From the NCBI GenBank assembly GCA_020072965.1, contig JAIQFY010000007.1, positions 1 through 64,000 of the forward strand: 64,000 nucleotides of DNA. Reading direction: 5' to 3'. Positions 2,101 through 52,133 of the stretch are shown here, piece after piece. The notes below the pieces were generated by a model. That model saw nothing but the letters and a program-made list of their open reading frames with translations. It was not told the origin of the DNA and ran no database searches. The stretch is from Terriglobia bacterium. GTDB lineage: Bacteria > Acidobacteriota > Terriglobia > JAIQFV01. Every line of letters begins with the position of its first letter. Position 1 is the first letter of the stretch. The position numbers were made by a program, and so were the translations under genes.

Positions 2101-3048
2101 ATGAAGCGTCATTTAAGAAACTCTGAAAGCGGCGTCATTCTACTGATCGTTCTCTGGGTGGTGGTGGCGCTGGGGGTGCTCGCCTTTGGGTTTGCCACCA
2201 ACATTCAATTGGGCATGCGTTCCATTCGCAACACAAAGGATGGAGTCTCCGGATATTTTCTGGCGAAGGGGGCCATTAGCGAATCGATTTTTGAAATGAT
2301 GAAAATCTCTCAACCGGATACTCCGCAAGAGGTCGGACTGGCTTTTAAGCAACAGCGGACAGCTTACCAGCCGCTTTCAATCACCCTCGAAACGGGATCC
2401 GCTCAATGCTGGATTGAGAATGAATCAGGCAAGCTGGACTTGAATGCCGGTTCGCCCGCGCTTTTTCGAAATCTGCTGATCCGCCAGTTTGACGTCGACG
2501 ATTCACTGGCCAATGATCTGGTCAATCAATGGGAGGAATGGCGCAGGCCGAAACTCGATTCCAACGGCAACACCCAGGGCGGTCCGCTCAACTCCGTTGA
2601 GGAGCTTTCCGGGCTGAAAGGGATGAAGCCGGAATTCATTTATGGCTTTTGGAGGCGGGCTCCCGATGGGACCGTGGAACACCGTCGGGGACTCCTGAAT
2701 CTGGCCACCCTCTATTCGGGCTCCGCGGGGATTAACCTCAATGACGCACCCCTTGAAATCCTGCAGGCACTGCCCGGCGTGACTGCCTCGGAGGCGAAAG
2801 CCATCGCCAGTGCGAGGACCGCACACTTTTTTGAGTCGATTGATGACTGCCAGCAGCGAGTTCCGATCCAGTTTAACGACGAGTCCAGGAACCTGGTTTC
2901 CATTCAGGAATCCACCGCATTTGCCTTCATCGCCAGCGGACGCGCCGCGGGGTCTGATTATGAGCGCACCATCCGGGCTATCGTGAAGTTTGGAACGAAC
3001 GATCCCCTGGGCTACCGAATTGTGTATTGGAAAGACGAGGAGATCTAG
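2101..3048 (+). CDS. gspK: T2SS minor pseudopilin GspK
   Basis: GspK caps the pseudopilus tip. The N terminus has ESG followed by VILLIVLWVVVALGVLAFGF; GspK characteristically lacks the Glu at mature position 5, as seen here. At 315 residues it is the largest pseudopilin of the set, as expected. Two stretches resembling helix-hairpin-helix/SAM-like motifs of GspK are visible: the GPLNSVEELSGLKGM region and the INLNDAPLEILQALPGV region. It ends three bases before the GTG start of gspL, indicating tight coupling. Confidence 0.9.
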   Translation: MKRHLRNSESGVILLIVLWVVVALGVLAFGFATNIQLGMRSIRNTKDGVSGYFLAKGAISESIFEMMKISQPDTPQEVGLAFKQQRTAYQPLSITLETGSAQCWIENESGKLDLNAGSPALFRNLLIRQFDVDDSLANDLVNQWEEWRRPKLDSNGNTQGGPLNSVEELSGLKGMKPEFIYGFWRRAPDGTVEHRRGLLNLATLYSGSAGINLNDAPLEILQALPGVTASEAKAIASARTAHFFESIDDCQQRVPIQFNDESRNLVSIQESTAFAFIASGRAAGSDYERTIRAIVKFGTNDPLGYRIVYWKDEEI

Positions 3049-3051
3049 GCC

Positions 3052-4533
3052 GTGTTCGCATCCAAGAAGATCGTTACCATCTCAGCCGACGGGGGGCACC
3101 TGCACTTCGTCGCTGTCAAAAGAGGTTGGCGTGGCTTCGAGCTCGCTTCATGGATGACGCTGCCAAATGATCCGCAGCGGGATTCCCTGGCGCTTCGGCC
3201 GGAGATCGATGAATTCTATCGACGCGCCGGCGTCGACAAGAACCAGACGGTGGTCGAGATCCCCCGCGCCAAGGTGGCGATAAGAACTCTGCAGTTTCCC
3301 AAGGCGGTCCTCGAGAACCTTACCCACATCATCGAATACCAGGTGGAGAACTATGAGCCCATAGATCGTGCGGACCTGGCTTATGTGCACCAACGGGTGG
3401 ATGACGCCTCTCCCACTGGCCCCTCCGCTTGGATGAATCCTCTGGCGTTGCTCAGCCGCTTTGCCTCCGGGAAGGCCCGGAAACCGGGTGCGCCTGTTGC
3501 CCAGGAGAAACTGGAGGTGCTGCTGGCCATGGCTCCACGAGCCGAGGTGGAGCACCAACGAGAATTTTGGGCCGGGTTTGGGATATATCCCCAGGCGATG
3601 CTTTGCGGGTCGTTTGGACTGGCGAGGCTTTTGCAACTGGATCCAGGCGCCGGGCGCGAGAGAAACTTTCTCTTGCGCGTGGGTGAAAATGACTTTGAAC
3701 TGATCGCTGTGTTCTTGGGAAAGATCCGCCGTGCCCAACGCTTCGAATTCCTCTCCAGTGAACCCCAGGCCAGGGCTGAGCACATGTTGCTGGAGTTGGG
3801 ACGTTCGCGGGCAGAACTTCGCATCGAGGAAAAGGACGTCCATAACGTGTATGTGACTGGAGCGGATCCGGAATCCTACCTCAAGGAATTCCGGTCAAGC
3901 TCAACTTCCCTGCCTCTGCGACCCCTTCGTGTTCCGGCCTGTCTGCGCTCCCGGGCAAACCTCACGGAGTTTCACGCCCTCGCTCCCGCCATCGGCGATT
4001 CCTTACTGGCGATGAGCAAGGGGGGTCTGGCGACCGATCTGATGGGCCGGGCAGAGCACATCGCGCATCCCCGGTGGGTATGGGCGCCGACCTATGCGTT
4101 CTGTGGGTTGGCTGTTCTCATGGCGGGTGCAAGTGCGTCGGGGCCGTACCTCCAGCAGTCGCGATTCGTGGATCAATTGAGCTCGGAGATCACGAGGCTC
4201 CAGCCCCAGGTCAGGCAGGTGGAGCGGATTGAAACCGAGGCCAATGAAGTTCGGAAGAAGGCGGCGGTTCTCGATGCAGTCCAGGGCCGTGATGCCCTCA
4301 ATCTTGAAGCGCTTAGAGAACTCACCGAGATTCTCCCGGACAGCGTCTGGATCAACGATTTCTACCTCAGGGCAGACGGTGTGGAAATCAATGGTCTGGC
4401 GGAAAATGCGACCGCACTCGTTCCCCTGATCGAGCAGTCCCCGCTGTTCAAGGATGTCGCTCTGGCTTCAGGGATTACCCGAAACCAGCAGGGCAAGGAG
4501 ATGTTTCGCATCCGGGCAAAGTTCGAGTTTTAG
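3052..4533 (+). CDS. gspL: T2SS inner-membrane assembly protein GspL (PilM/PilN-like)
   Basis: Inner-membrane platform protein that links the cytoplasmic ATPase GspE to GspM and the pseudopilus. Of 493 residues, about 1-335 form an actin-fold PilM/GspL-like cytoplasmic domain, 343-365 a transmembrane helix (WAPTYAFCGLAVLMAGA), and the rest a periplasmic coiled-coil plus PilN-like ferredoxin domain (DSVWINDFYLRADGVEINGL). It uses a GTG start three bases after gspK. It is the only candidate for L in the operon and precedes gspM. Confidence 0.8.
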   Translation: MFASKKIVTISADGGHLHFVAVKRGWRGFELASWMTLPNDPQRDSLALRPEIDEFYRRAGVDKNQTVVEIPRAKVAIRTLQFPKAVLENLTHIIEYQVENYEPIDRADLAYVHQRVDDASPTGPSAWMNPLALLSRFASGKARKPGAPVAQEKLEVLLAMAPRAEVEHQREFWAGFGIYPQAMLCGSFGLARLLQLDPGAGRERNFLLRVGENDFELIAVFLGKIRRAQRFEFLSSEPQARAEHMLLELGRSRAELRIEEKDVHNVYVTGADPESYLKEFRSSSTSLPLRPLRVPACLRSRANLTEFHALAPAIGDSLLAMSKGGLATDLMGRAEHIAHPRWVWAPTYAFCGLAVLMAGASASGPYLQQSRFVDQLSSEITRLQPQVRQVERIETEANEVRKKAAVLDAVQGRDALNLEALRELTEILPDSVWINDFYLRADGVEINGLAENATALVPLIEQSPLFKDVALASGITRNQQGKEMFRIRAKFEF

Positions 4534-4570
4534 TGACTCGTCAGCCGGAGTTGCGTTGAACCTGACAACC

Positions 4571-5173
4571 ATGAAGCTCTCAATTCCAAAACCAGGTTTC
4601 ATAGCGCGCCTTTCGGCGCGTGAAAGAAAAATCCTGGGCGCGGGCCTGCTCTCGGCGTTCCTTTTTGGCGCGCTGTATTTTCTTCTATTTCCGACTTACG
4701 ACAAGGTCAAACAATACCCTGAGCAAATTGCCCAAAGGACCCGGCTCCTGCAAAGATACAAAGAAGTCATCGCACAGCGGCAAATGCAGCAACAATCCCT
4801 CGATACCACTCGAAAACGAATTGTGGAGTTGGAGAATCATCTCCTGACCGCCCGCACTACGGCGGCCGCTCAGGCCCAGTTGCAAGGCTTGGTTAATGAC
4901 CTGGCCAAACAATCTCAACTCCAGATTAACCGCAGTGATTTCCTCCCCAAGAAAGAGCTGAGTAAGGATTATGAAAAAGTTTCGGTTCGGCTCGATGCCG
5001 TCGGGACTATCAACCAGATAACCGCGTTCCTGACGGCCGCAAAAGAGATGCCCATGTTTGTGCTGAACGATGACTTACGCCTGTGGAGTTATAGCAGCCT
5101 GAGTGAAGGGTGGAAGAAATCGAAGCAGATCGCTGCCACCATCGTAGTGTCCGGGGTGATTCGGCATGAGTAA
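4571..5173 (+). CDS. gspM: T2SS inner-membrane protein GspM (PilO-like)
   Basis: Bitopic protein of the T2SS inner-membrane platform. From ATG 4571 it has 200 residues: a short cytoplasmic segment ending in SARERKILGAG, a transmembrane helix at about 20-40 (LLSAFLFGALYFLLFP), a coiled coil with many Gln/Arg residues, and a PilO/GspM-like C-terminal domain. The frame is open upstream into gspL but that extension has no support; ATG 4571 begins 38 bp after the gspL stop. The order L-M is the normal one. Confidence 0.8.
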   Translation: MKLSIPKPGFIARLSARERKILGAGLLSAFLFGALYFLLFPTYDKVKQYPEQIAQRTRLLQRYKEVIAQRQMQQQSLDTTRKRIVELENHLLTARTTAAAQAQLQGLVNDLAKQSQLQINRSDFLPKKELSKDYEKVSVRLDAVGTINQITAFLTAAKEMPMFVLNDDLRLWSYSSLSEGWKKSKQIAATIVVSGVIRHE

Positions 5174-5223: not shown

Positions 5224-5341
5224 GTTAGTCTCAAAGTTATGGGCGAGGCCTAATGATGTTATGAAAAAAAACACGCGCTCGCGGTTTCGCTATCTGACCT
5301 CTGACTTTCAACATCTGATTTCATTCTCTTGGCCCTTTTTT

Positions 5342-5376
5342 CCTATTCCCTACTACCTATCACCTATTACCTCCTC
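5342..5376. repeat. heptad array 4b, inverted partner
   Basis: Five 7-bp units (CCTATTC, CCTACTA, CCTATCA, CCTATTA, CCTCCTC) are the reverse complement of the array at 5175-5223. It ends 15 bp before the start codon of the GspC-like gene. The interval between the two arrays contains a short CTGACCTCTGACTTTCA stretch, the complement of the GAAGTC family. Confidence 0.85.
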
Positions 5377-5391
5377 GCTGGGTGCAAAGAA

Positions 5392-6096
5392 ATGACAACA
5401 CTGAAAAAGATCCTGGCAATAAAACACATCATTCTTCTCGATGCGTTGCTCATCGCGCTGTGCCTGTGGATGGGAGTGGGCCTGCGGCGACAGTGGTTGG
5501 CCAACGCCGCAGTCTACCAGGTATCCAGGATTGTGGCGCCCAGCGTAGCCATGAAACAGGCTGTCGCGAAGCAGAAATCGGCCGAGGCACTGCGGAAGAA
5601 TTACATGGTCATTGCCAGCCGGAATCTTTTCAGTCCCGATCGCAACGATCAAATCGCCCGGGAAGACATAGCCAAGGTGCGACCTCCCAAGCCCGTCTTG
5701 TTCGGTGTCATTAATTTGAAGGACGCGAAGCTAGCCATGATGTCATCTCCGGGAAGCCGAGACTTTCGATCGCTGAAGGTGGGGGACAAGATTGGGGAGT
5801 ATACCCTGACCCGGATTCTCCCCAACAAGGTGGAGTTGCTGTGGGGCAGTGAAACAGTGGAAACCACGACCGAAGAGCAACCCAGAACAATTCCTGCTCC
5901 AGTGGCGCCAGTCGTTGGTGGCGGAGCTGGCGGGAAAGTTGTTTCCGTCAGCGGCTCGGAAGGGGGCGCTTCCTCGGCCTCCGCCTCCGGTCCGACCAAT
6001 GCCGCCCCAGCGCAACCTCCCGCGGGACAAGGCCCGTGCAAGGGACATTGGGTGAAGACGTTGTTTGGGATGGTGTGCTCTGAGGATTCGAAATGA
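5392..6096 (+). CDS. gspC: GspC-like T2SS protein
   Basis: Likely GspC, the inner-membrane protein that couples the platform to the secretin. From ATG 5392 it has 234 residues: a cytoplasmic start, a transmembrane helix at about 12-28 (ILLDALLIALCLWMGVG), and a homology-region-like domain (VLFGVINLKDAKLAMM ... SLKVGDKIGEYTLTRILPNKVELL). A Gly/Ala/Pro/Ser-rich linker and a short conserved-looking tail (HWVKTLFGMVCSED) follow. No PDZ domain is visible. Placing C just before D is compatible with its role. The tail motif recurs near the N terminus of GspD, see findings. The open frame upstream of 5392 is repeat DNA. Confidence 0.7.
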   Translation: MTTLKKILAIKHIILLDALLIALCLWMGVGLRRQWLANAAVYQVSRIVAPSVAMKQAVAKQKSAEALRKNYMVIASRNLFSPDRNDQIAREDIAKVRPPKPVLFGVINLKDAKLAMMSSPGSRDFRSLKVGDKIGEYTLTRILPNKVELLWGSETVETTTEEQPRTIPAPVAPVVGGGAGGKVVSVSGSEGGASSASASGPTNAAPAQPPAGQGPCKGHWVKTLFGMVCSEDSK

Positions 6097-6270: not shown

Positions 6271-8682
6271 GTGCACAAAAAATTCTTGATCGGAATGGTG
6301 CTCTGGGGGGGCTTAATTTGCCTGGCCTTCTCGTCAGCCATGGCGCAATCTCAACAGGAACAGAAGCCTCCAGCTCAGGGAGCGGCTCAAGATAAGAAAT
6401 CGGGGAAGGAAGAGCCCCCGAAGAAGAAGATGAAGAAGGTGCACACCCTCTTTGGAGATGTTTGGGTGGAAGATACCGGTGAGCCTGAGCAGCCAAACTC
6501 CGGTTTGAAACCTGAACCCCCGGTCGCAGTACCGCCTGGTTCGCCATCGCAACCTTCAGCGGATCAAACTCCCAAGCCCCCCGCCGGGGCCCCGATTGCT
6601 GTTCCTCAGCCGCCCCAGTCAAAGCCGAAACCGGAAACCGAAGGCATTCAGCAACCTGCTCCGGGAGAGAAGAAACCTGAAACTCCATCGCCCCCATCGG
6701 CTCCCGGTTCGACCCAGGTCCCCGCCGCGACCCCATCTCAGGCTGCCCCACACCCACCCTCCTCTCCTCCAATCACGGGCGCGTCTCTGGTCTTCAATAA
6801 TGCTGATTTGATCCAGGTCGTCCAGGTGATCGCCAATTTGCTCCATCTCAACTATGTCCTGGACCCGGGTGTAAAAGGAATCGTGACCATCACGACCATG
6901 GGCGATATCTCCAGCGCCGACTTGATGCAGATCTTGCAGACGCTGCTTCGAATTAATGGGGCCACAGCCATCCAAACCGGCAATTTGTGGCAGATTGTCC
7001 CCTTGAAATCGGTGCACCAGATTCCAATCCGAATGGAGCGCCCGGGAGAAAAGCCACTGTCACCTGGGGATGAAATGGTGACAGAGGTTGTTCCCATGCA
7101 GTTTGTGGCCGCCGCGGACATGAGCAAGCTGCTTAAGGAATTTCTTTCCGATGCCGGGTCAATCGTCAGCCATGATCGGGGGAACATCCTTATTCTCACG
7201 GACGCCAGCCGCAACATGTCGAGACTGTTGGACTTGATTCGGACCTTTGACTCTGACGTTCTTCAGAATCAGCGTCTTCAATTGTTCACTGTGAAAAACA
7301 ACTCAGCACGCTCCGTCATCGAGGATTTGAAGAGTATTTTTTCAGCTTATGCGATGAGCGATAAGGACTCCGCCATTCGTTTTGTCCCGCTCGACCGTCT
7401 CAATGCCATTTTGGCTGTGGCGCCCAATCCGGCCAGTTTCGATGTGGTGGAGCAATGGATTGACAAGCTCGACCAGCCCTCGCAGATCGCGGGGATAAGG
7501 AATTATGTTTACCATCTGCAATATGCCAAGGCTACGGTGATAAGAGGACTGCTGGGTGAGCTCTACGGCTCAGTGATCACAAAGGAAGCGCCAATCGCTC
7601 TTCGCTCGGATGCCAATGCAGGGGGGGCTCCCTCTCCCACGGCAGGAATGTCTCCCAGTACGATCCTGGCCCAAGGGACACCGCAGGAGAAGACGCAGCA
7701 GAAGGAAAGGGAAGTTTATGGCTTTCAAGGCAATATCAAGATTGTTGCCGACGAGACCAACAACATGCTGATCATTCAAGCGACCCCGCAAGACTATGAC
7801 TTGATTGAGCAAACACTCCACCAAATTGACATTCTTCCCCTTCAGGTATTGATTGAAGCGCAGATTTTCCGCGTCGATTTGTCCCATGATTTTTCGTTGG
7901 GAATTGAGTATGCGTTGCAACAACGGGGCACCGCCCCGGGCGGCACCACGCCCCTTGCCGACTTTACAGGAGGGGTTTTGAGCGGCTCCATGGTGATCAT
8001 AAATGCAGGAGCCCGCGAGCTTTTCGCCAAAGTGACCGCTTCCGAGAACCGGACACGCGCCAAAACGCTCGCGGCTCCCTCCATTCTGGTCAGCGACAAT
8101 CAAGAGGCTCGAATCCAGGTCGGGGTATCCATTCCCACCCTCAGTTCTTCAGGATTTTCGCCGGGGTCGACAACTACCGTCTTCAACACCGTGCAAAATG
8201 TGGACACGGGCGTCATTTTGGCGGTGACCCCCCATGTCAATGCCAGCGGTCTGGTCGGCCTCAAGGTGACTCAAGAGGTGAGTTCCCCTGTGCCTCCGCC
8301 GGCTGGAGTCCCCAACATTTCTCCGTCCATCAATCGCGCTTCGGCCTCCACCACTTTTGTCATCAAAGATGGAGAGACCATGGCCATTGCAGGGATTATC
8401 ACGGAGGATAAAGAACTTACCCGCAGCCGGATACCGTTGTTAGGTGATATCCCGTTCGTGGGGGCCGCTTTTGGGAGCACAAATTGGACAAACAAGCGCA
8501 GCGAGTTGATCATCTTCATCACCCCACACGTGGTGACGACTCTGGACCAAGCCAAGGTTACTTCCGACTCATTTAAGGAGGAGATGAAGGGTTTGAGCAG
8601 CGAGATTCGGAACAAGGCCCGAGCTCATCACGCCGCCTGGGATAAGGCGCCTCCTCCCGCGCCCCCCCTCACTCAGCCATGA
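6271..8682 (+). CDS. gspD: T2SS outer-membrane secretin GspD
   Basis: Forms the outer-membrane gated channel of the T2SS. Of 803 residues, about 1-25 are a signal peptide (MHKKFLIGMVLWGG... to AMAQ). Residues 26-165 are an unusual Lys/Pro-rich linker. From about 171 there is an N0-type domain (LVFNNADLIQVVQVIANLL), followed by N1-N3 domains (AADMSKLLKEFLSDAGSIV; IVADETNNMLIIQATPQDY). The C-terminal secretin domain covers about 530-770, with PLLGDIPFVGAAFGS and SELIIFITPHVV typical of the family. The start codon is GTG 6271 with no strong Shine-Dalgarno sequence. It is the last gene before the terminator at 8690. Confidence 0.95.
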   Translation: MHKKFLIGMVLWGGLICLAFSSAMAQSQQEQKPPAQGAAQDKKSGKEEPPKKKMKKVHTLFGDVWVEDTGEPEQPNSGLKPEPPVAVPPGSPSQPSADQTPKPPAGAPIAVPQPPQSKPKPETEGIQQPAPGEKKPETPSPPSAPGSTQVPAATPSQAAPHPPSSPPITGASLVFNNADLIQVVQVIANLLHLNYVLDPGVKGIVTITTMGDISSADLMQILQTLLRINGATAIQTGNLWQIVPLKSVHQIPIRMERPGEKPLSPGDEMVTEVVPMQFVAAADMSKLLKEFLSDAGSIVSHDRGNILILTDASRNMSRLLDLIRTFDSDVLQNQRLQLFTVKNNSARSVIEDLKSIFSAYAMSDKDSAIRFVPLDRLNAILAVAPNPASFDVVEQWIDKLDQPSQIAGIRNYVYHLQYAKATVIRGLLGELYGSVITKEAPIALRSDANAGGAPSPTAGMSPSTILAQGTPQEKTQQKEREVYGFQGNIKIVADETNNMLIIQATPQDYDLIEQTLHQIDILPLQVLIEAQIFRVDLSHDFSLGIEYALQQRGTAPGGTTPLADFTGGVLSGSMVIINAGARELFAKVTASENRTRAKTLAAPSILVSDNQEARIQVGVSIPTLSSSGFSPGSTTTVFNTVQNVDTGVILAVTPHVNASGLVGLKVTQEVSSPVPPPAGVPNISPSINRASASTTFVIKDGETMAIAGIITEDKELTRSRIPLLGDIPFVGAAFGSTNWTNKRSELIIFITPHVVTTLDQAKVTSDSFKEEMKGLSSEIRNKARAHHAAWDKAPPPAPPLTQP

Positions 8683-8689
8683 TGTAGAA

Positions 8690-8728
8690 AGGGCGCTCTG
8701 GCCCGACGGAGCGCCCTCTATAATTTTT
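8690..8728 (+). terminator. intrinsic terminator after gspD
   Basis: The arms AGGGCGCTC (8690-8698) and GAGCGCCCT (8709-8717) form a perfect 9-bp stem with a 10-nt loop, followed by CTATAATTTTT. It lies 7 bp after the gspD stop and ends the T2SS transcript. Confidence 0.9.
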
Positions 8729-9334
8729 CTCGGTGCCTCTCGCGCGGCTTTGCGGTAAGTAGAGCTTTTTTTTGCCCTCCAGTAAAAAAACCTCAAAAAA
8801 ATGAACTTCTTTCCGTCTCCATTATTGATTGTGTGTTATGGTTTCATCAGTCAATCCGCCGGATAAAGGCCGTCAACTCAATGAAAAGCGCTTGACAACA
8901 GAAAATGAGGATGTTACATTCGGCGGGACTTTCGAGGCTTCACCTCACTGCTGTTCATGAGTCCAAATTTTATAACAGGTATTTTTGGCAAAATTCTTAG
9001 AATGTAGAATTGTGACTCAGGGTAGCGATGAATCGATGGTATCTTTCGCACGACAGTTCAGATTCTGGATCAAGAGGAGGTGAGGCGTCGGAAATTGGCG
9101 CGTGATACCACGCTGATTGCGCCAAGCACCAGCCCTTAAACGCTCCCTTGGCACCTTTGGAGCAAATTCCTGAATCAGCGGTGCATTTCAACTTTTTTAC
9201 GGTCCTGGCAGCACCCCCGAGACTTCGGGGCGAAACAAACAATCCCTTCGAGTAAGATCAAATCCGTCGGCCGATCTTGAAGTTAGGAGAGGAGGGCGGA
9301 TCAATTGCCCATATTAAACAAAAGGAGAAACGAG
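8729..9334. other. long intergenic leader between T2SS operon and secreted-protein gene
   Basis: About 600 bp with no convincing gene. It holds a sigma70-like promoter candidate (8892-8919) and a small GC hairpin near 9214-9230 (CCCCGA/TCGGGG). If the promoter is used, the mRNA leader would be over 400 nt. I do not recognise any riboswitch class in it. Confidence 0.5.
8892..8919 (+). promoter_or_regulatory. sigma70-like promoter candidate
   Basis: A perfect -35 box TTGACA (8892-8897) is followed after 16 bp by TTACAT (8914-8919) as a -10 box. It points towards the secreted-protein gene at 9335. Judged by sequence alone. Confidence 0.5.
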
Positions 9335-10972
9335 ATGTCCTTAAGAAAATTAACTTTAGTTGCGCTTGCCCTCACGTTCCTGCTGACGGGCGCAACCCTG
9401 TTTGCCCAACAGGTTCCGCACTTCGTCCTCAGCAGCACGAACACAGTGGTTCGTCAGCACGGCCAGACGGAAGTCCTTGGTGACCTGACGCTGACATGCG
9501 ACGTGGCAGGAACATTCCCGACCAACTCCACGTTTTCAGTCATTTATTCCCCCGTGGCGGGTCTTGTGAACGCCGCGGATACCACTAACCTCTTCACCAA
9601 TGCGAGTGCCCAGGTTGTCAATGCACGCGTGGCTCATGTGGAGAGTGAACCCGCGACCACCACGATCGTCATTGGAACCGTCTCTTTGAACACGGTGGTC
9701 ACGAACAGTATTACCGTGCAAGTGTCCGGCACGGCTGCACCCGGCGACATCATCCGCGTTATGGGAATTCGTGCGAACATTGCGGGTGCCAGTTTGCCGC
9801 CCAACACCTCCGTTAATGCCACCATCATTGCGATTCCACCGAACGCTTTCCAAATCGACAACGTCTCGACAATTTCGGTGGCCTTCGTGTTGGATGAAAT
9901 CAAGGTCACCGTCTCAGCGGCAGATCCGATCTTGGCCTGCCAGCCGGGAGTTTGCCAAACTGACTCCATCACGATCCAGGAGAAATTCCCTTCGGCCTTG
10001 ACTACGGTCACCGATGAAAACGACCTCCAGCACAAGCCGAGCGGCGTCGGAGCCACCAATGGACCGCCGAAGAGAGCCTCATTTGGAACGCAGATCATCG
10101 TCACAATGCTTGGAATCCCTCCGGGAGTCCTGGTTGCCTTTAACGGTCAATCCGGAACAACCTTGACGATGACGGCTGTGGCACCAACCACCTTTACCAA
10201 TACCTCAACAACAACTCCTGCGAGTGCCACGTTCACCTTTAACACGGCGACGGACGACATCAACCTTTCGGAAGAAGTAACTCTGTTTTTCACATTCTGT
10301 CCGACAAGCGGGATCCCTGCTCCTCCAGTGCTCTCGACGATCACTGCGCAGGCCACACTGGGTCCGAATAGATCTGGGACCTTCACAACTACGGTTCCTT
10401 CAGCCAGCATTCTGAGCTTCGTAAAGAATCTCCAGAATACCCCTCCGGATCCGATCGAGACGCTGGCGAATTGCGTCACCAACCTGCTCTGCAAGTTCAT
10501 TTCCACGGCAACCGGTGCTGTGCCGGGTGGCGGCTATGACACGGGTCTTGCCATTGCCAACACCAGCACAGACATCTTCGGGGATTTGGGTGCTGTACCG
10601 CAGACGGGTGCGTGCCGAATGTTCCTGTTCGGGTCGGGCGGCACAAATGCCAATATCAACAGCACCACGAAGCCGGTCTTCACGACTCCGTTGGTGGCGA
10701 GTGGTACCAGCGCGGTATTTGATGCGAAGTTTACCGCGGGAGTGGGTGCTGGTTTCCAGGGTTATAGCATCATCCAGTGCGACTTCCAGTTTGGTCACGC
10801 TGAAGCTATCATCTCCGACCAGCAGTTCTCGACCTTCTCACACGGCTATGACTGCTTGATCATCCCGGATGTCAACCTCACCGGCGGCCGATTCGCGATT
10901 CCAGTCGGCTTCAACGGTGGCGGTTCGGGCGAGTCGGGAGAGTCATTGGGCGAAAAGAGAGTTCGCCGCTAG
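9335..10972 (+). CDS. secreted beta-rich protein with RQHGQTEV domain
   Basis: I do not recognise a named family. The 545-residue product starts at ATG 9335, preceded by AGGAGAAACG, and has a clear signal peptide (MSLRKLTLVALALTFLLTGATLFAQQ). Residues about 27-370 form a domain that begins HFVLSSTNTVVRQHGQTEV and contains GDLTLTCD and HVESEPATT. The same domain recurs inside the two M6 proteases at 43654 and 48118. Secreted Acidobacteriota proteins have a loosely similar TE.GD..LTC pattern, so this may be a variant of a wider cell-surface fold. Residues about 385-530 form a second domain (GGYDTGLAIANTS, CRMFLFGSGG, HGYDCLIIPD). The C terminus is Gly/Ser-rich with a basic tail GEKRVRR. It lies right after the T2SS operon with its own terminator, so it is a plausible abundant T2SS substrate (inference). 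Confidence 0.75.
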   Translation: MSLRKLTLVALALTFLLTGATLFAQQVPHFVLSSTNTVVRQHGQTEVLGDLTLTCDVAGTFPTNSTFSVIYSPVAGLVNAADTTNLFTNASAQVVNARVAHVESEPATTTIVIGTVSLNTVVTNSITVQVSGTAAPGDIIRVMGIRANIAGASLPPNTSVNATIIAIPPNAFQIDNVSTISVAFVLDEIKVTVSAADPILACQPGVCQTDSITIQEKFPSALTTVTDENDLQHKPSGVGATNGPPKRASFGTQIIVTMLGIPPGVLVAFNGQSGTTLTMTAVAPTTFTNTSTTTPASATFTFNTATDDINLSEEVTLFFTFCPTSGIPAPPVLSTITAQATLGPNRSGTFTTTVPSASILSFVKNLQNTPPDPIETLANCVTNLLCKFISTATGAVPGGGYDTGLAIANTSTDIFGDLGAVPQTGACRMFLFGSGGTNANINSTTKPVFTTPLVASGTSAVFDAKFTAGVGAGFQGYSIIQCDFQFGHAEAIISDQQFSTFSHGYDCLIIPDVNLTGGRFAIPVGFNGGGSGESGESLGEKRVRR

Positions 10973-11004
10973 TTCTTAAGTGACATCTCAGCATTGCAAA
11001 TTAA

Positions 11005-11035
11005 GGGGTAGCCTACGGGCTACCCCTATTTTTTT
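11005..11035 (+). terminator. intrinsic terminator
   Basis: A perfect 9-bp stem, GGGGTAGCC (11005-11013) and GGCTACCCC (11018-11026), with a TACG tetraloop and then TATTTTTTT. It closes the single-gene unit at 9335-10972. Confidence 0.95.
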
Positions 11036-11261: not shown

Positions 11262-12080
11262 ATGAAGAAAAAACTGTTTCTCACGGTTTTAGTCTCAAGT
11301 GTATTTTTTGGTTTCTTTCCAACCCTCTCGGTCCGTGCCGGGGACAATCCTCTCGGAACGCAGCTCAGGGCCCGCGTGACCGAGTTTTGGACGGCTTGGT
11401 CCCGGGGTGAGGCGGAGAAAACGAATCTTCTGGTTCGGGAAGAGGACCGCCAGGCATTCGCCAAAATTCGACGCTTTGACGTTCTGGATTTTAAAATCGA
11501 CTCTCTCCTGATCAGTGCGGATTCCAAATCCGCCGTAGTGAGGACAAACATTAAGCGGACTCTTCCCATGTCACCAGCACCCGTCGATTGGATGGTCGAG
11601 AATCAATGGGTTTATGAAAAAGGGGATTGGTACCTTCTCTACTCACAAAATAAGCAGCCGGCGATGCCTGCGGGGGAGGTTCCTTCCCTTTTCAATGCGG
11701 GTTCAACCCCTGCGCAGCCGGCGCCCCCGAACGACATCGTCTTCGATTCCACGACCTTTGACTTCGGAACGATGCCGGCAAGCACGGGGCTCCATCATGT
11801 TTTCCCTTTTGAAAACCGGGGGACCCGAGCATTGAGATTGGTCCGCCTTGGGACGCCCTGCCAGGGACTCTTCGCCACTCCCCAATGCAAAGGAGTGATC
11901 GCTCATTCGGACGGCTCCGTTTACGGGCCCGGGAAAAAAGGAAAGATCGAGGCACAATGGCAGAATGTTTTGACTCCTCAAAAGGTGGATCAGACCATCG
12001 AACTTTACTTTGATAATGGCCAGGTCTTCAATCTCCGCATTGTGGGCACCGTCACAGAGTCCAAGGTGCTGAAACCGTAA
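11262..12080 (+). CDS. secreted DUF1573-domain protein
   Basis: Exported protein of 272 residues. Residues 1-27 are a signal peptide (MKKKLFLTVLVSSVFFGFF...SVRA). Residues about 30-125 form an alpha+beta domain reminiscent of NTF2/SnoaL-like folds (EFWTAWSRGEAEKTN; WVYEKGDWYLLYSQN). Residues about 155-268 are an Ig-like DUF1573 module (IVFDSTTFDFGTMPAST ... FPFENRGTRALRL). DUF1573 modules are common in exported proteins of Bacteroidota and Acidobacteriota, but their function is unknown. No close operon partner: the next gene is about 400 bp downstream. Confidence 0.75.
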   Translation: MKKKLFLTVLVSSVFFGFFPTLSVRAGDNPLGTQLRARVTEFWTAWSRGEAEKTNLLVREEDRQAFAKIRRFDVLDFKIDSLLISADSKSAVVRTNIKRTLPMSPAPVDWMVENQWVYEKGDWYLLYSQNKQPAMPAGEVPSLFNAGSTPAQPAPPNDIVFDSTTFDFGTMPASTGLHHVFPFENRGTRALRLVRLGTPCQGLFATPQCKGVIAHSDGSVYGPGKKGKIEAQWQNVLTPQKVDQTIELYFDNGQVFNLRIVGTVTESKVLKP

Positions 12081-12475: not shown

Positions 12476-15061
12476 ATGAAAGGGCATGGGTTTCCAATGT
12501 ACTTTAGGAATTTGCGTTCAAGGATTCAATACTGGGCTGTGGTGGGATGCATCGCCATTGCATGCTCGACGTGTGCAATACTCACACCGGCTCAGAGTCA
12601 GAACACGATCTATTTTGGCGACATAGTCCACGGTGGCTCGGGCTCTCCGTTCCAGACGATTATCCAATTATTCAATGCCTCGGACCAGGGAGTGACAACC
12701 ACCCTTAGCATTTTTCAGGACAATGGGGCGCCCTACAATCTGGGGCTGAAGGATTCTCAGACAGGTAATGCATTGACGCCGACATCGCCCGGGGTTTTCA
12801 GTCTTTCAATTCCTGCCCGGGGTGTAAAGGCCATGGTCACTACCGGCTCCCAGTCGGTACAGGCGGGCTGGGTTCAAATGACTTCCACGTCGCCAAAATT
12901 GAATGGCAACGTTGTGTTTCAACAACTGGACAGCGCAGGGAACCTGCTATCCCAAACGGGGGTAGAGACGTCAACCGCCCTCTCGTCCTTGACGGGGTTT
13001 TTGGAAAAATCTTCCACCGTCAATACAGGTATTGCCCTTGCTAATCCGTCTTCGACCGCGACGGTGCAAGTCACCCTCCAGGTCACAGGCCCTGATGGGC
13101 TGGTCACGCTTAGTCCGTTTACCTTCTCTCTTGCTCCTCTACAACACATTGCGCAGTTCCTGGAACAGTTTCCGCCCTTTGTGAATGTGGGAAACACAGT
13201 GGGTACACTCGCGGTCTCAGCGAGTGGTAACATTATTGGAACGTTTTTGAGGCAGGACCGGGGTCAACTCACCACCGTCCCCCTGTTCGCCGGCACGGCC
13301 CTGGTTCCCACCATTACCAGCATTTCTCCGACTTTGGGTGGTACCGACACCACGGTCACAATCACCGGAGCAAGTTTTGATACCAACAATTTTACGAACA
13401 ACCATGTGACCTTCAACGGTGTGAGTGCGCCGGTCGTGAGCGGAACGGCCACCACGCTGGTGGTCACCGTTCCCCCGGGCCTGCCCATCCAGACGGTGCC
13501 CGTGGCGGTCGCCGCGAACGGGGGATCGAGCAACAGCATTAATTTCACCGTGATCGCGGGGTTTGCTGTGCCGGTCATCGCTTCGCTCGACCCGCCGGCT
13601 GTGCTGGCCGGCTCCGACACGACGAATGTGACCATCAATGGGGCCAACTTCGGAACAGTTCAAGAGGGCGCCGCAGTTCGGTTCGGAACGTCGGCAACCT
13701 CCTTCACGAATCCCGCCTTGCAGGTGGTCAGTTCCACGAAGGCGATTATGACCTTGGCGTCGGATCTCTTGGGACAGGTCGGAGGGTTTTTCGTGACTTT
13801 TGTAAATCCTAGAAACAACTTGTTCGGTGACAACCTATCGAATCCGATGTCGTTTCAGGTGTCAAACCAGATTGCGACACAGCCCCCGACTATCACGAGT
13901 GTCGACCCTTCCACCGCTCATGTGGGCGAACGTGTGACCATTACGGGAACCAACTTTGATCCGGTCATCACCTCAAATAACATTGTCCGGTTCAATGGAG
14001 TTCAAGCAACCTCGATCTTCTCCGCCACGAGTACACAGATTGCAGTGACTGTGCCGGGAGGGGCAACCACAGGGCCGTTGACGGTGACGACCAGTGGCCT
14101 AACGAGCAATGCTGTGAATTTCACCGTTCTGAAACCCCTCGCCCTTCGCACCGTAGCGGTCGGAGCCGCTCCCGCCAAGGTGGTTATCGACCCGGTTCTC
14201 AATCAGGCCCTCGTGACGGATAGTGACCCTGGAGTCCTTGGCACAGGGGCTGTCAACGCCGTCACGTTTGTAGATATTGCGAGCGCAACGACAATCAGCA
14301 CGGTTCCCGTCGCTGCCGAAAACCCTCTGGGAATTGCCATTTTCGGGAGACAGGCATTCGTGGCCAATTTTCCCGGTTTGATTCCGGGGAGAAGTCTGAG
14401 TGTTCTCAATCTTGATACACAAAGTTTCCAGGCCTTAATCGATGTGAACAGCCTGGGCGGACGCCCGTTTAATCTGGCGATTGATACGGCTAATGGCAAT
14501 GCCGTGATTACGGACGATTCGTTGCACCTTGGCGTGCTGAACTTTGTCACCAGGCAAACCGTTTCGTTTCTTATGAGCACACCCTATGATGTTGCGGTTT
14601 ACAATCCCTCACCCAGTGTGGACTGGGCGTTGATCTCGAATTTTTCCGAAGGGAAGCTCGTCATCTTCGATTTGCTCACGCAGACTCAAAAAACCACAAT
14701 TGCAGTGGGACGGAGTCCGCAAGGAATTGCGGTAAATCCCGGCACTGGCCTTGCCGTGGTCGCGAACAGTGGCGATAACACAGTGTCCATTGTGGACCTG
14801 AACACGCTGGCGGTGGTGGGAACGGTCCAGGTAGGGTCCAGTCCAAATTACGCGGCGGTCGACCCGACGCGCAATCGAGCCGTCGTGACTAATAATCTTG
14901 AAGGCTCGATCTCGGTGATTGATCTGGGGACTAAGGCGGTGATTGCGACGCTCTCAACAGGTGGGAACAACCCAACTGGCGTCGCTATTAGTCCTGCTGC
15001 GAACCTGGCGCTCGTAACGAACCAGGGCTCGGGCACGCTGGCGTTCATTGCCTTGCCTTAG
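12476..15061 (+). CDS. secreted TIG/IPT plus YVTN beta-propeller protein
   Basis: Large exported protein of 861 residues. The N terminus has a signal sequence (about 17-43, ending TPAQSQ). Residues about 45-270 form a beta domain common in Acidobacteriota surface proteins (TIYFGDIVHGGSGSPFQTIIQLFN). Three IPT/TIG Ig-like modules follow from about 278, 370 and 470 (ITSISPTLGGTDTTVTITGA; IASLDPPAVLAGSDTTNVTI; ITSVDPSTAHVGERVTITGT). Residues about 555-861 are YVTN-type propeller repeats (VGRSPQGIAVNPGTGLAVVAN; VGSSPNYAAVDPTRNRAVVTN). These modules usually mediate surface or adhesive interactions (family knowledge). ATG 12497 is an alternative start. A terminator lies 77 bp downstream. Confidence 0.8.
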   Translation: MKGHGFPMYFRNLRSRIQYWAVVGCIAIACSTCAILTPAQSQNTIYFGDIVHGGSGSPFQTIIQLFNASDQGVTTTLSIFQDNGAPYNLGLKDSQTGNALTPTSPGVFSLSIPARGVKAMVTTGSQSVQAGWVQMTSTSPKLNGNVVFQQLDSAGNLLSQTGVETSTALSSLTGFLEKSSTVNTGIALANPSSTATVQVTLQVTGPDGLVTLSPFTFSLAPLQHIAQFLEQFPPFVNVGNTVGTLAVSASGNIIGTFLRQDRGQLTTVPLFAGTALVPTITSISPTLGGTDTTVTITGASFDTNNFTNNHVTFNGVSAPVVSGTATTLVVTVPPGLPIQTVPVAVAANGGSSNSINFTVIAGFAVPVIASLDPPAVLAGSDTTNVTINGANFGTVQEGAAVRFGTSATSFTNPALQVVSSTKAIMTLASDLLGQVGGFFVTFVNPRNNLFGDNLSNPMSFQVSNQIATQPPTITSVDPSTAHVGERVTITGTNFDPVITSNNIVRFNGVQATSIFSATSTQIAVTVPGGATTGPLTVTTSGLTSNAVNFTVLKPLALRTVAVGAAPAKVVIDPVLNQALVTDSDPGVLGTGAVNAVTFVDIASATTISTVPVAAENPLGIAIFGRQAFVANFPGLIPGRSLSVLNLDTQSFQALIDVNSLGGRPFNLAIDTANGNAVITDDSLHLGVLNFVTRQTVSFLMSTPYDVAVYNPSPSVDWALISNFSEGKLVIFDLLTQTQKTTIAVGRSPQGIAVNPGTGLAVVANSGDNTVSIVDLNTLAVVGTVQVGSSPNYAAVDPTRNRAVVTNNLEGSISVIDLGTKAVIATLSTGGNNPTGVAISPAANLALVTNQGSGTLAFIALP

Positions 15062-43549: not shown

Positions 43550-43653
43550 AAATTTACTCGACCGAAGAATAGCGGTGCAGATCATAAACCCGATTGCGCG
43601 ACCCGAGAAATACCCCCTCGTCCCAACGCATTTATCCCGAACCGGTAGTTCAT

Positions 43654-46600
43654 ATGCCAAAGAAAATACTGAAGTACTTCTTCCTTTTGATCCTGGTCGT
43701 ATCCGCTGCTGCCATCAATCGTTTAGATGGTGCCTTGCTTCGCAACTTTCCTGTCACCATCACCCAGCCCGACGGTGTTGTGATTCATTGCTTTGCCAGT
43801 GGGGATGAGTTTTACAACTGGCTCCACGATGAAAACGGCTACACGATTATCCAGGATCCGGTCTCAGGGTATTACACCTATGCGGTGGTCCGAAACGGGG
43901 AGCTTGTGTCTTCCGAGCACATTGTTGGAAGAGTCGATCCAGTCTCCCTGGGCCTCCCCAAGAATGCCAATACCTTTCCGCAGCAGATCTCGCGGAAGTT
44001 CGCGGCTCCCCGCCAGGGTTCACCTCTGAATCCTGATTCCATCCTCAAGGCACCACGAGCCGGCACTTTGAATAATATTGTTATTTTCATTCGATTCAGT
44101 GGCGACAGTGAGTTCCCGGAAGCGAGCAGTGTGTACGATACGATGTTCAATTCAACGGCGCCGGGCGCGAACTCCATGCGGAATTATTACGCCGAGGTGT
44201 CCTACAGCCAACTCACGGTTTCCACCTCCTTTTACCCGGCACCTTCGGGAGGCTGGGTCACGTCCTACCAGGATTCGCATCCGCGAGGTTATTTTCGACC
44301 TTACAATGTGAGCACCAATCCGACCGGATATACCAACAGCACGGACAGCCGAAACCGGGAGCATACGTTGCTGGCGAACGCCGTCAGCGCCGTTGCCTCT
44401 CTGGTCCCGCCCGGACTCAATATCGACGGAGATGGCGACGGCTATGTCGATAACGTCTGTTTTATTATTAAGGGATCTCCGGATGGCTGGAGTGATCTCC
44501 TATGGCCTCATATGTGGTCGCTTTACACTCTCACCGCAACGATCAATTCCAAGCGGGTTTTCACGTACAACTTCCAACTGGAAAACAGCCTGGGGACAAA
44601 TGATGTAGGCGTCCTCGCCCACGAGATGTTTCACTCGTTGGGCGCCCCGGATCTGTACCATTATAGCTTCGATGGAATCAGCCCCGCCTATGCATGGGAC
44701 CTGATGGAAAATGACCTCAATCCCCCCCAGCACATGACTGCGTATATGAAGATGCGTTACGGGACCTGGTTATCCTCCATTCCCACGATAACCACCTCAG
44801 GGACTTACACCCTGAACCCGCTCACTTCGTCCACAAATAACGCTTTCAAAATTGTTTCTCCAAACTCCTCGACAGAATATTTTGTCATTGAATACCGAAA
44901 GAAGGCAGGCACGTTCGAAAATTCACTGCTGGGTGAAGGGTTGATTGTTTACAGGATCAACACCCTGGAGGATGGACAAGGGAATTCGAACGGTCCACCA
45001 GACGAATTGTATGTTTACCGGCCGGGCGGAACGGTGTCCGCCAACGGCAGCCCTTCCCAGGCCAACTTTAACAGCACTGCCGGCAGAACAGCCATCAATG
45101 ACAGTTCAAATCCCTCGAGCTTTCTTTCCACCGGGAGCGCGGGGGGGCTGAACATCTCCGACGTAGGCGCGGCGGGAGACACGATTTCCTTTACAGTTTC
45201 CGTGGCGGACGCCGACACCATAAGGATCGTCGTTGAGCCGAGCGGGAGTCCAAACCCGGTAATTCCTGCGGGGACAGCGGGCCTTTTCGTGGTAGCGACG
45301 GATTCGTTGGGGCACACGCTAACTTATGCTTGGACGGCCTCCTGTCCCGCGCTTGGTTCCAACGGGAGCTTCAGCGATCCAAACGTGCAGACTCCGGCCT
45401 GGACCGCGCCGAGCAACACCACGGGGACCATGCAGAGCTGCACGATGCAAGTGACGGTGAGCGATGGTCATGGGAAAAGCACGCAGGGCAGTTACTCTCA
45501 AGGAGTCGGTTCGACGACGCCCGGGGTTGTCCCCCACTTCGCCGTCAGCGGCACCACTTTCGTTGGACGTCAACATGGACAGACCGAAGTGATGGGTGAT
45601 TTGACTCTAACCTGTGATGTGCCCGGGATCTTTCCCTCAAGCTCTTCCTTCGTTGTGGTTTATACTCCCGTCTTTGGTATTGTAAACTCCAGCGGTAACA
45701 CGTTTACAACCGCCACCGCGGTCGCTTTCAATGGCCGCATGGCCCACGTTGAGAGCGAACCCCCGACCACCGGGATCAGCATCATCAGTGCCCTATTGAA
45801 TATGGTGTCCACAAACAGCCTCACTGTTCAAGTGGCCGGTTCAGCGGCCCTGGGAGATGTCATCCGCATTTCGGGAATCCGAGTCAACGTGGGCGAGGCC
45901 ACCCTCCCCTTCAACACTTTTTTATCGGGCACCGTGGTTGCAGTCCCTGCAGCCTCGTTCCAGATCGACAACATCAACACGTTCCCGGTGGGATTTGTGC
46001 TGGATGAGATCAAGATAACAGTGGCCCCGGCCCCCACACAGGGTTCCTGCCATCCCGGAGAATGCAAGGTGGGCACAATCAAAGTTATTGAGAAGTTTCC
46101 AGGCGCCCTAAGCTCAGTTGGAGATGAAAACGACGTTTTGCATAAGCCCAACAGTGTGGGCGCCAAGTCAGCTTCAAAGGGAACCCAGTTGATCGTCACA
46201 CTGGGTAACATTCCTCCCGGGATGACCGCTTCCTGGCCGGCCTCAATCAGCAATGGGGACTTAGTATTGGCCCTGGAGGGATCGACCACCTCGTTCACCA
46301 ATGCCTCAGCAACGACTCCGGCCAGCGTCAGTTTTACTTACAACGTGACAGGTGATAGTCAGGTCCTCAATGAGACCATAGACATTGCTGTCACCTTTTG
46401 CGCCACTTCAGTCCCGACCCCTCCGGTGTTCGGAGACATCACCGCTGGGGTCAAGTTAGGCCCGAATGCGGGGGCGGGCTTCACCGCGGAAGTCCCCTCG
46501 AGCAATATTTTGAGCTTTGTTCCCCATCCCTTGAATGTGCCGACGGATACGATCGGGGGGTTACAGTTATGTCTGCTGACGCCGCCAACGGTCACGACCG

Positions 46601-47667
46601 ATCAGGCGACCAATGTCTCTACCAGTTCGGCGACCCTGAATGGAACCGTGACCCCGAATGGACTGGCCACCACGGTAGTATTCGAATGGGGTACGACGAG
46701 GGCCTATGGCAATACCACGCCTGTGCAATCTATCGGCGATGGAACGGGTGGCGCCTCAGTGACGGCCAACTTGACCGGCCTCACGCCCGATACGCTCTAC
46801 CACTATCGGGTGACGGCGATCAACAGTGCGGGGACAACCCAGGGCGGCGATACGCCTTTTGTGGCTTCCTTGTGCTCCGCATACTACGTGGATCCATCGA
46901 GCCAGTCGTTTAGCGCTCAAGGGGGAAATGGGAGCGTGAGTGTGAGCGCAGCGTGCAATTGGACGGCCGTGCCTTCCGATCCTTGGATCATCATTACTTC
47001 TGGAGGCATTGGGAATGGGGACGGGCCGATCAATTACGCGGTCGGTAGCCATTCCAATCCCACTTCACGCGGCGGCACCATTACGATCGGGGCGACCAGC
47101 TTGGCAGTGTTACAGGGGGCGCAGTTTGCGGATGTGCCCGTGGGCCATATGTTTTATGACCAGATCGGGAAACTGTCGGCGCGGGGGGTGACGACGGGCT
47201 GCGGAGGAGGGAACTACTGTCCAGATGCTTCGGTGACCCGGGAGCAGATGGCGATATTCATTGAACATGCGCTGGGGGTGATGACGGCGCCTATCCCGAC
47301 GCAGCAGACCTTTCAGGATGTGCCGACGAGTTGGTTCAGCTATCCGTTCATCGAGGATTTTGCATTGCGGGGGATCACGGCAGGCTGCTCGATAACGCCG
47401 CGGCTGTACTGTCCCGCGTCCACGGTCACGCGGGAACAAATGGCCATCTTCATCGAACACGCGCTGGGGGTGGTGACGCCGCCGGCTCCCGCACAACAGA
47501 CGTTTGAGGATGTGCCGACAAGTTGGTTCAGTTATCCCTTCATCGAGGATTTTGCGACTCGAGGCATCACCGCAGGCTGTTCCGTTTCGCCCAAGTTATA
47601 CTGCCCAGCCTCGCCGGTGACGCGCGGCCAGATGGCGGCGTTTTTGGTGCGGGCGTTTTGGTTGTAG
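43654..47667 (+). CDS. secreted M6-type metalloprotease, multidomain, SLH-anchored (copy 1)
   Basis: 1,337 residues from ATG 43654. A signal peptide covers about 1-24. The M6 (immune-inhibitor-A-like) protease domain spans about 60-530, with the zinc site HEMFHSLGAPDLYH (H323, E324, H327) and a Ca-binding-like DGDGDGYVDN upstream. Then come an Ig/PKD-like module (about 535-620), the RQHGQTEV domain (about 626-970), an FN3-like module (TLNGTVTPNG...YHYRVTAINSAGT, about 975-1070) and a BACON-like module (VDPSSQSFSAQGGNGSV, about 1072-1155). Residues 1156-1337 are three SLH-type repeats. It is predicted to be exported, perhaps through the T2SS, and held at the surface. The next gene is a full-length tandem duplicate. 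Confidence 0.85.
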   Translation: MPKKILKYFFLLILVVSAAAINRLDGALLRNFPVTITQPDGVVIHCFASGDEFYNWLHDENGYTIIQDPVSGYYTYAVVRNGELVSSEHIVGRVDPVSLGLPKNANTFPQQISRKFAAPRQGSPLNPDSILKAPRAGTLNNIVIFIRFSGDSEFPEASSVYDTMFNSTAPGANSMRNYYAEVSYSQLTVSTSFYPAPSGGWVTSYQDSHPRGYFRPYNVSTNPTGYTNSTDSRNREHTLLANAVSAVASLVPPGLNIDGDGDGYVDNVCFIIKGSPDGWSDLLWPHMWSLYTLTATINSKRVFTYNFQLENSLGTNDVGVLAHEMFHSLGAPDLYHYSFDGISPAYAWDLMENDLNPPQHMTAYMKMRYGTWLSSIPTITTSGTYTLNPLTSSTNNAFKIVSPNSSTEYFVIEYRKKAGTFENSLLGEGLIVYRINTLEDGQGNSNGPPDELYVYRPGGTVSANGSPSQANFNSTAGRTAINDSSNPSSFLSTGSAGGLNISDVGAAGDTISFTVSVADADTIRIVVEPSGSPNPVIPAGTAGLFVVATDSLGHTLTYAWTASCPALGSNGSFSDPNVQTPAWTAPSNTTGTMQSCTMQVTVSDGHGKSTQGSYSQGVGSTTPGVVPHFAVSGTTFVGRQHGQTEVMGDLTLTCDVPGIFPSSSSFVVVYTPVFGIVNSSGNTFTTATAVAFNGRMAHVESEPPTTGISIISALLNMVSTNSLTVQVAGSAALGDVIRISGIRVNVGEATLPFNTFLSGTVVAVPAASFQIDNINTFPVGFVLDEIKITVAPAPTQGSCHPGECKVGTIKVIEKFPGALSSVGDENDVLHKPNSVGAKSASKGTQLIVTLGNIPPGMTASWPASISNGDLVLALEGSTTSFTNASATTPASVSFTYNVTGDSQVLNETIDIAVTFCATSVPTPPVFGDITAGVKLGPNAGAGFTAEVPSSNILSFVPHPLNVPTDTIGGLQLCLLTPPTVTTDQATNVSTSSATLNGTVTPNGLATTVVFEWGTTRAYGNTTPVQSIGDGTGGASVTANLTGLTPDTLYHYRVTAINSAGTTQGGDTPFVASLCSAYYVDPSSQSFSAQGGNGSVSVSAACNWTAVPSDPWIIITSGGIGNGDGPINYAVGSHSNPTSRGGTITIGATSLAVLQGAQFADVPVGHMFYDQIGKLSARGVTTGCGGGNYCPDASVTREQMAIFIEHALGVMTAPIPTQQTFQDVPTSWFSYPFIEDFALRGITAGCSITPRLYCPASTVTREQMAIFIEHALGVVTPPAPAQQTFEDVPTSWFSYPFIEDFATRGITAGCSVSPKLYCPASPVTRGQMAAFLVRAFWL

Positions 47668-48117
47668 TGAAGAATCGGGGGTTTCGAGTTTCAGCTTGTC
47701 AAGAAGTGTGACGGGGAGAGGACTCGTGATCCTTGACTTCTCTCCTCACTCGGCATCATAGTTCAGCCAGGTAAAAGGGGGCGAAAGAGACGACTCGTGT
47801 CCGGTGGAGGCTTGTGGTGCGAGGGATCTCATCCTGTGCGATTCTATTGCTGGCCCGATCGATGGTCCGCTGATTATAGGTTAATTTTCCTCCTCCCTTT
47901 ATCTTAATCCCATACAGAAGTTTGAACCATGAGGTAAGTGCCAGCCGTTTTTCGCGAGTGACGTGAGTTCTCATTCGATCATCGCGAAACAAAGTCAATA
48001 TCAAGGGGCCCCCAAATTTACTCGACCGAAGAATAGCGGTGCAGATCATAAACCCGATTGCGCGACGTGAGTATTGCCGGCTCGTCCCCACGCATTTATC
48101 CCGAACTGGGAGTTCCT
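47668..48117. repeat. duplicated spacer, copy 2 (unoccupied transposon site)
   Basis: About 350 bp matches 39663-40008 plus 43542 onwards almost base for base. It keeps GGGCCCCC once at 48006-48013, so it records the site before transposition. The differences from copy 1 are scattered substitutions. Confidence 0.9.
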
Positions 48118-51100: not shown

Positions 51101-52133
51101 CTTGAACGCGACCGTGAATCCAAATGGATTAGGCAGCTCAGTGGTGTTCGAGTGGGGTACAACAAGAGCATACGGAAACATGACTCCAGTTCAATACATA
51201 GGCAATGGAACGAGTAATGTTGCTGTTTCGGCTAACCTGACCGGTCTCACACCCAACACGCTCTATCACTATCGGGTAGTGGCTTTGAACGGTGCGGGGA
51301 CCACGCAGGGAGGTGATGTGCCCTTTGTGGCTTCCGACTGTTCGGTAAGCAATATGAACCCGGCCAGCCAGTCTTTCAGCGCATTGGGCGGCATTGGCAA
51401 TATGGATGTGACGTCGTCGTGCAGCTGGACGGCACTCTCTTCGGATTCTTGGATCACGATCACTTCTGGAGGGAGTGGAAATGGGAATGGCACGGTCAAC
51501 TTCCAGGTCGATAGCCATTCCAATTCCACTTTGCGGTCGGGCTTCATCACGATCGGGGCGACGAGCTTCACTGTGGTGCAGGGGGCGCAGTTCGCTGATG
51601 TACCAATGGGCCACATGTTTTACGAGCAGATCGGGAAACTGTCGGCACGGGGAGTCACCTCGGGGTGCGGAGGAGGGAACTACTGTCCGGATGCTTCGGT
51701 GACACGGGAGCAGATGGCCATTTTCATTGAACATGGGCTGGGGGTGATGACGGCGCCTATCCCGACGCAGCAGACCTTTCAGGATGTGCCGACGAGTTGG
51801 TTCAGCTATCCGTTCATTGAGGATTTTGCATTGCGGGGGATCACGGCAGGCTGCTCGATAACGCCGCGGCTGTACTGTCCGGCGTCCACGGTAACGCGGG
51901 AGCAGATGGCCATCTTTATCGAACACGCGTTGGGGGTGATGACGCCGCCGGCTCCGACACAACAGACGTTTGAAGATGTGCCGACGAGCTGGTTCAGCTA
52001 CCCCTTCATCGAGGACTTTGCAACTCGAGGGATTACGGCGGGATGTTCGGTTTCGCCCAAGTTATACTGCCCAGCCTCACCAGTGACGCGCGGCCAGATG
52101 GCGGTGTTCCTGGTGCGGGCCTTTGGGTTATAA
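48118..52133 (+). pseudogene. M6-type metalloprotease copy 2, frameshifted
   Basis: Tandem paralogue of the gene at 43654 with the same domain order: signal peptide, M6 domain with HEMFHSLGAPDLYHH (H323, E324, H327 in the same positions), Ig-like, RQHGQTEV domain, FN3-like, BACON-like and three SLH repeats. Reading frame 1 stops at 50265. The correct continuation (HVESEPATTGISIL) is in another frame from about 50211. Copy 1 reads GCCCACGT where copy 2 reads GCCACGT at 50209-50215, so one C is missing. As written, the product would lose the second half of the RQHGQTEV domain, the FN3/BACON modules and the SLH anchor. It is either a true frameshift giving a truncated soluble protease, or a sequencing/assembly error in a C-run. 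Confidence 0.85.

Follow-up and report, generated by a model that had tools for sequence, protein, structure and literature searches.

The window, i.e. the whole stretch of 64,000 nucleotides that was analysed, begins with a T2SS operon on the forward strand, in the order gspH/I/J/K/L/M/C/D. The Pfam scan of the operon identified a gspH-like pseudopilin (27-545; N_methyl, GspH), gspJ (1205-2029; T2SSJ, below the Pfam cut-off), gspK (2101-3048; T2SSK), gspL/PilN (3052-4533; PilN), gspM (4454-5173; T2SSM_b) and the gspD secretin (6271-8682; Secretin, Secretin_N, gspD_N0). The pseudopilin in the gspI position (555-1193) was assigned by its place in the operon, and the gspC-like gene (5329-6096), which has no Pfam match, by position and sequence features; its homologues are equally placed in other T2SS loci. 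Behind gspD and on the same strand lies the gene of an exported protein of 545 amino acids (9335-10972), here called the free protein; other Acidobacteriota also encode homologues within their T2SS loci. Its open reading frame covers 9305-10972, with the ATG at 9335 as the likely start and the stop codon ending at 10972. A terminator-like stem-loop follows gspD (8690-8717), and a promoter-like site (TTGACA-17-TACATT, 8892-8920) lies between gspD and the free gene; these consensus matches suggest that the free gene is transcribed separately. At its 3' end a terminator-like stem-loop with a 10-bp stem and a T-run (11004-11027) agrees with the preliminary description, which had given the gene its own terminator.

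The signal peptide of the free protein (MSLRKLTLVALALTFLLTGATLFAQ, 9335-9409), read by eye from the sequence, stops at ...LFAQ, so that the mature protein would begin at ~9410; homologues, read likewise, repeatedly show AFAQ-type ends. It is followed by an N-terminal module (N-module, RQHGQTEV...ILSF, 9413-10447) of two predicted all-beta lobes, the second of which starts near 9935 at an I-x-I-x-E-x-F-x-x-A motif. Profile searches delimited a C-terminal domain (GYDTGLAIANTS...FQGYSIIQCDFQF.H...FSHGY, 10466-10920), and residues ~385-555 constitute this second conserved domain, which is single-copy in the source genome. The chain ends in a tail with a conserved E-x-L motif (GESLG, 10928-10969). 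Neither a lipobox nor a sortase or SLH anchoring motif was found in the free protein, whose sequence is Thr/Ala/Val-rich and fast-evolving.

A segment of ~350 residues is common to the free protein and two tandem M6 proteases, at 47-57% identity. Residues 36-392 of the free protein align with the intact protease (43594-47667) over 357 columns (52% identity, E 2e-104), which bears out the earlier observation that some 340 residues recur between the free protein and the M6 proteases; judged by these alignments, the shared segment is real and modular, far above chance. The intact protease is arranged as M6 catalytic domain, N-module (45529-46569, forward strand), fn3-like region and SLH. The preliminary description had placed the segment inside both proteases, and both do contain it, but in the second (48058-52133, forward strand), which consists of two overlapping open reading frames (48058-50265 and 50214-52133), a frameshift near 50210 falls within the shared segment and interrupts the copy (49996-51038). 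The split gene is thus a pseudogene of recent origin or else the product of an assembly error; an intact relative stands just upstream. Searching the genome against itself returned the three copies of the window and a fourth at C70:246522-247886, in a 1033-amino-acid BACON-like exported protein. The hosts of the N-module are secreted multidomain proteins, and in the N-module tree the two M6 copies cluster together, as do two BACON-like copies, so that the fusions look like separate events inside this bacterial family. No M6 fusion of the N-module was found in a genome of the same genus (G001) or in one of the same family (G002). One contig (37399-58236 in the window, C80 to ~96 kb) encodes a cluster of at least eight exported proteins whose C-terminal SLH stretches are similar, with 56-82% identity to the intact protease, which suggests local duplication of cell-surface proteins.

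The free protein matched none of the curated Pfam-A and NCBIfam families above the curated cut-offs, and 12 homologues gave only scattered single chance matches in Pfam/NCBIfam. There was no match among PHROG families, no relative in viral collections, no significant hit among PDB chains by sequence (the N-module profile reached E 0.76 at best, the C-domain profile 0.8), and nothing on this family in a literature search. The segment thus matches no named family in Pfam, NCBIfam or PDB, as had been supposed. A scan of species genomes with narrow sequence patterns, which suit this family poorly, yielded one relative, a 46% match. Homologues of the free protein are present in G001, with 82% identity over the segment, and in G002, and a genome of the same class (G070) encodes a 514-amino-acid protein that aligns end to end and lies directly behind gspJ-K-L-M-C-D. 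Profiles of the C-terminal domain recovered further members in other families and classes of Acidobacteriota, the phylum that the in-depth search covered and in which many loci are broken in metagenome-assembled genomes. The alignment of 12 full-length members showed a signal peptide, an N-module with a central I-x-I-x-E-x-F-x-x-A-F motif, the C-terminal domain "GFDTGIAIANTT" and a short E-x-L tail; the free protein itself unites signal peptide, N-module and C-terminal domain in one chain, the definition of the family used here.

The profile of the window N-modules matched eight distant N-halves with hhalign (probability 98.8%, E 8e-17, 278 columns), and hence the guess that Acidobacteriota proteins with a TE.GD..LTC pattern are distant relatives was right. 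The description as an unnamed exported domain stood as far as the name goes, but the segment proved to be only the N-terminal part of the members of a longer family, which also have a C-terminal domain. A free-standing domain was considered and rejected: distant members hold the N-module within the longer chain or in another exoprotein, with exceptions in short N-module-only proteins of G002 and G148. An equivalence between the C-terminal domain and the TGIALVNPN repeats in the BACON-like protein was also considered, but the match spans only 18 columns (probability 40%). Near the stop codon, 11 of 14 members carry E-x-[LMI]-[GDNASV], with at most 7 residues after it and a linker of varied length, compared with 4.3% of 682 background open reading frames; this enrichment is suggestive only, since the motif was picked once the sequences had been inspected.

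Most related loci have, immediately behind the free gene, a companion gene, which in the window occupies 11262-12080 (forward strand) and encodes a signal peptide, a weak DUF4440/NTF2-like segment and a DUF1573 domain. DUF1573 (PapD-like) scored above the Pfam cut-off in this companion and in several relatives. A DUF1573-type gene, on the same strand and no more than 1 kb away, came directly after 18 of the 27 open reading frames with the C-terminal domain; counted on the same stretch, it was present in 22/26 C-domain loci and in 0/24 comparison loci (p=2e-10), the latter being T2SS loci without the C-terminal domain and N-module-only loci. The DUF1573 gene of G014 lies on the opposite strand. 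A second tier of ~200-amino-acid proteins, which have the C-terminal domain only, shows the same pairing; their companions match the profile built here, and the one case scanned (L120) had no match to the Pfam DUF1573 model. Since the second tier keeps the pairing, the C-terminal domain and the DUF1573-type gene are the constant core, and the N-module the part that wanders. The neighbourhood as first described, with the free gene behind the T2SS operon, was correct, but it missed this phylum-wide pairing; a literature search found no paper linking T2SS with DUF1573. Further downstream, at 12476-15061, lies the gene of an exported protein that combines TIG domains with a beta-propeller and a TGIALANPSS stretch; in G001 its relative comes after the same cluster, and in G002 after the companion gene.

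In five genomes from four families (G000, G001, G004, G014, G070), the free gene shares its strand with gspD and starts 0.40-0.85 kb behind it. In other genomes the family gene is found 4-11 kb behind gspD, co-directional wherever gspD is on the same stretch; gene order is reversed in G397. The C-terminal domain was detected in 22/396 genomes of the phylum, a lower bound because the search scores just a handful of candidates in each genome, and 21 of these 22 have a T2SS secretin. As a base rate, the gspD profile found a secretin in 24/197 genomes (E<=1e-100), among them 10 carriers of the C-terminal domain; a further 14 of 15 carriers tested (including G001, G002 and G070, from outside the phylum sample) had a secretin at E<=1e-40. 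The one carrier without a secretin match, G334, is a 72% complete genome in which a gspC-like gene separates the free gene from the DUF1573 gene. The carriers are therefore essentially always T2SS-positive, which was the check proposed at the outset. Within one 197-genome sample, a worst-case Fisher test of the C-terminal domain against the secretin gave p=6e-9, and the linkage p-values overstate independence because genomes share ancestry. At the G334 locus (L065; C80, 1051-7204), two tandem family members (793 and 506 amino acids) precede the gspC-like and DUF1573-type genes, and the family appears to be inserted within the T2SS gene set. In L120 (5537-7201) and L140 (7341-8948), gspD and the short C-domain gene are separated by the gene of an FG-GAP-like exported protein, beta-propeller-looking by eye, which may also belong to the T2SS-linked set.

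These proteins make up an unnamed family of exported Acidobacteriota proteins that is linked to the T2SS and paired with a DUF1573-type gene, and whose N-module is re-used in other exoproteins. The place directly behind gspD kept in five genomes, the co-directional linkage at 4-11 kb and the intervening gspC-like gene of G334 would also suit a role of the free protein and its DUF1573 neighbour as accessories of the T2SS apparatus or of the outer membrane around it (a scaffold or pilotin-like aid), rather than as clients. We consider this unlikely: the free gene appears to have its own transcript, exoenzymes freely re-use the N-module, and the free protein, unlike known pilotins, lacks a lipoprotein signal. 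Moreover, 14 of the 24 T2SS-positive genomes of the sample had no detected C-domain protein, which argues that the free protein is no core part of the T2SS.

The full-length model (from a four-sequence alignment) consisted largely of beta strands, a short helix marking the central motif, and was too poor (pLDDT 41) to be used for a fold search. Lobe 2 modelled alone was better (pLDDT 63, core 84-88) and weakly resembled beta-sandwiches of adhesins and pilins, and cohesins, with Z up to 6.7, where Z<8 is within the beta-sandwich background; with Foldseek, E was above 0.05. An all-beta fold is predicted for the family. Such generic similarity, together with the Thr/Ala/Val-rich, fast-evolving sequence, might be expected of a beta-sandwich spacer family whose nearness to T2SS genes is old synteny without functional linkage, a rather improbable explanation, given that the link is met again both within the class and in other classes of the phylum, at 20-30% protein identity, and that the DUF1573 gene and the conserved C-terminal tail recur along with it.

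The free protein is a good candidate for a dedicated client or partner of the adjoining T2SS. In fuller form, the proposal is that it is a T2SS-dedicated exported client with a companion, a beta-sandwich at the surface whose N-module was grafted onto proteases; we see about even chances for it. The protein would be made with a Sec signal peptide, fold in the periplasm, perhaps helped by a chaperone-like DUF1573 companion, be exported by the adjoining T2SS, and act at or near the cell surface or matrix as an adhesive or scaffold. The N-module was duplicated into the M6 proteases and the BACON-like protein within this bacterial family, most likely conferring the same docking property on them; its role as a binding module for a common surface partner, proposed earlier, is plausible. 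This client interpretation is favoured by the distant homology of the N-module and the architecture shared by 12 members, and by the adjacency to gspD, the co-occurrence with the secretin, the DUF1573 pairing and the presence of the N-module in secreted multidomain proteins. The weak likeness of the lobe-2 model to adhesin and pilin beta-sandwiches and cohesins speaks for it too, and PulA and InvL are a precedent for surface proteins, one of them an adhesin, that leave through a T2SS. It is weakened by the T2SS-positive genomes without a C-domain protein, the reversal in G397, the strand in G014, the absence of an anchor motif and the low Z scores.

The N-module might itself be the recognition or routing module of the T2SS, so that a grafted protease then goes through the neighbouring system; it is common to the T2SS-linked protein and to unrelated exoproteins of the same genomes, and all genomes in which its close form was found possess a T2SS secretin. 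A third M6 paralogue of the source genome (C9:113669-115225) was 69% identical, but only over query residues 20-538, with no match in the shared segment; some proteins hold the N-module mid-chain between Ig-like domains, as is typical of ordinary accessory modules, and it is the C-terminal domain that is best conserved in the T2SS-linked family. We therefore give routing by the N-module an outside chance, and its extension, in which the N-module is a transplantable routing domain, the DUF1573 protein serves as its client's own chaperone in the periplasm and the E-x-L tail acts as a recognition motif, seems quite improbable. If routing were true, the N-module would mark T2SS clients and be graftable onto other enzymes. 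M6 proteases with and without the N-module coexist in one genome and are a ready comparison pair.

It has long been asked how the T2SS recognizes its clients, and to our knowledge clients outside Proteobacteria have hardly been described. A gene set that recurs beside the secretin across the phylum and shares a module with other exoproteins of the cell offers natural domain-swap comparisons. Among known systems, the DUF1573 or HYDIN-VesB-ASH Ig-like (PapD-like) proteins resemble the companion gene by its domain, whereas the free protein itself has no match. The beta-sandwiches of CnaB-type pilins and fibrillar adhesins, and cohesins (PDB 9ifr, 8kb2, 2jh2), have strands arranged comparably to those of the predicted lobe 2 (Z 5-6.7, within background), but they share no sequence match with it. 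In Klebsiella, pulA adjoins its secreton genes. PulA and the InvL adhesin of Acinetobacter are surface-retained T2SS substrates (PMC12802150), exported in a T2SS-dependent manner. Both are lipoproteins, whereas the free protein has a plain signal peptide, and the likeness would be that of an exported T2SS substrate, in the case of InvL an adhesin.
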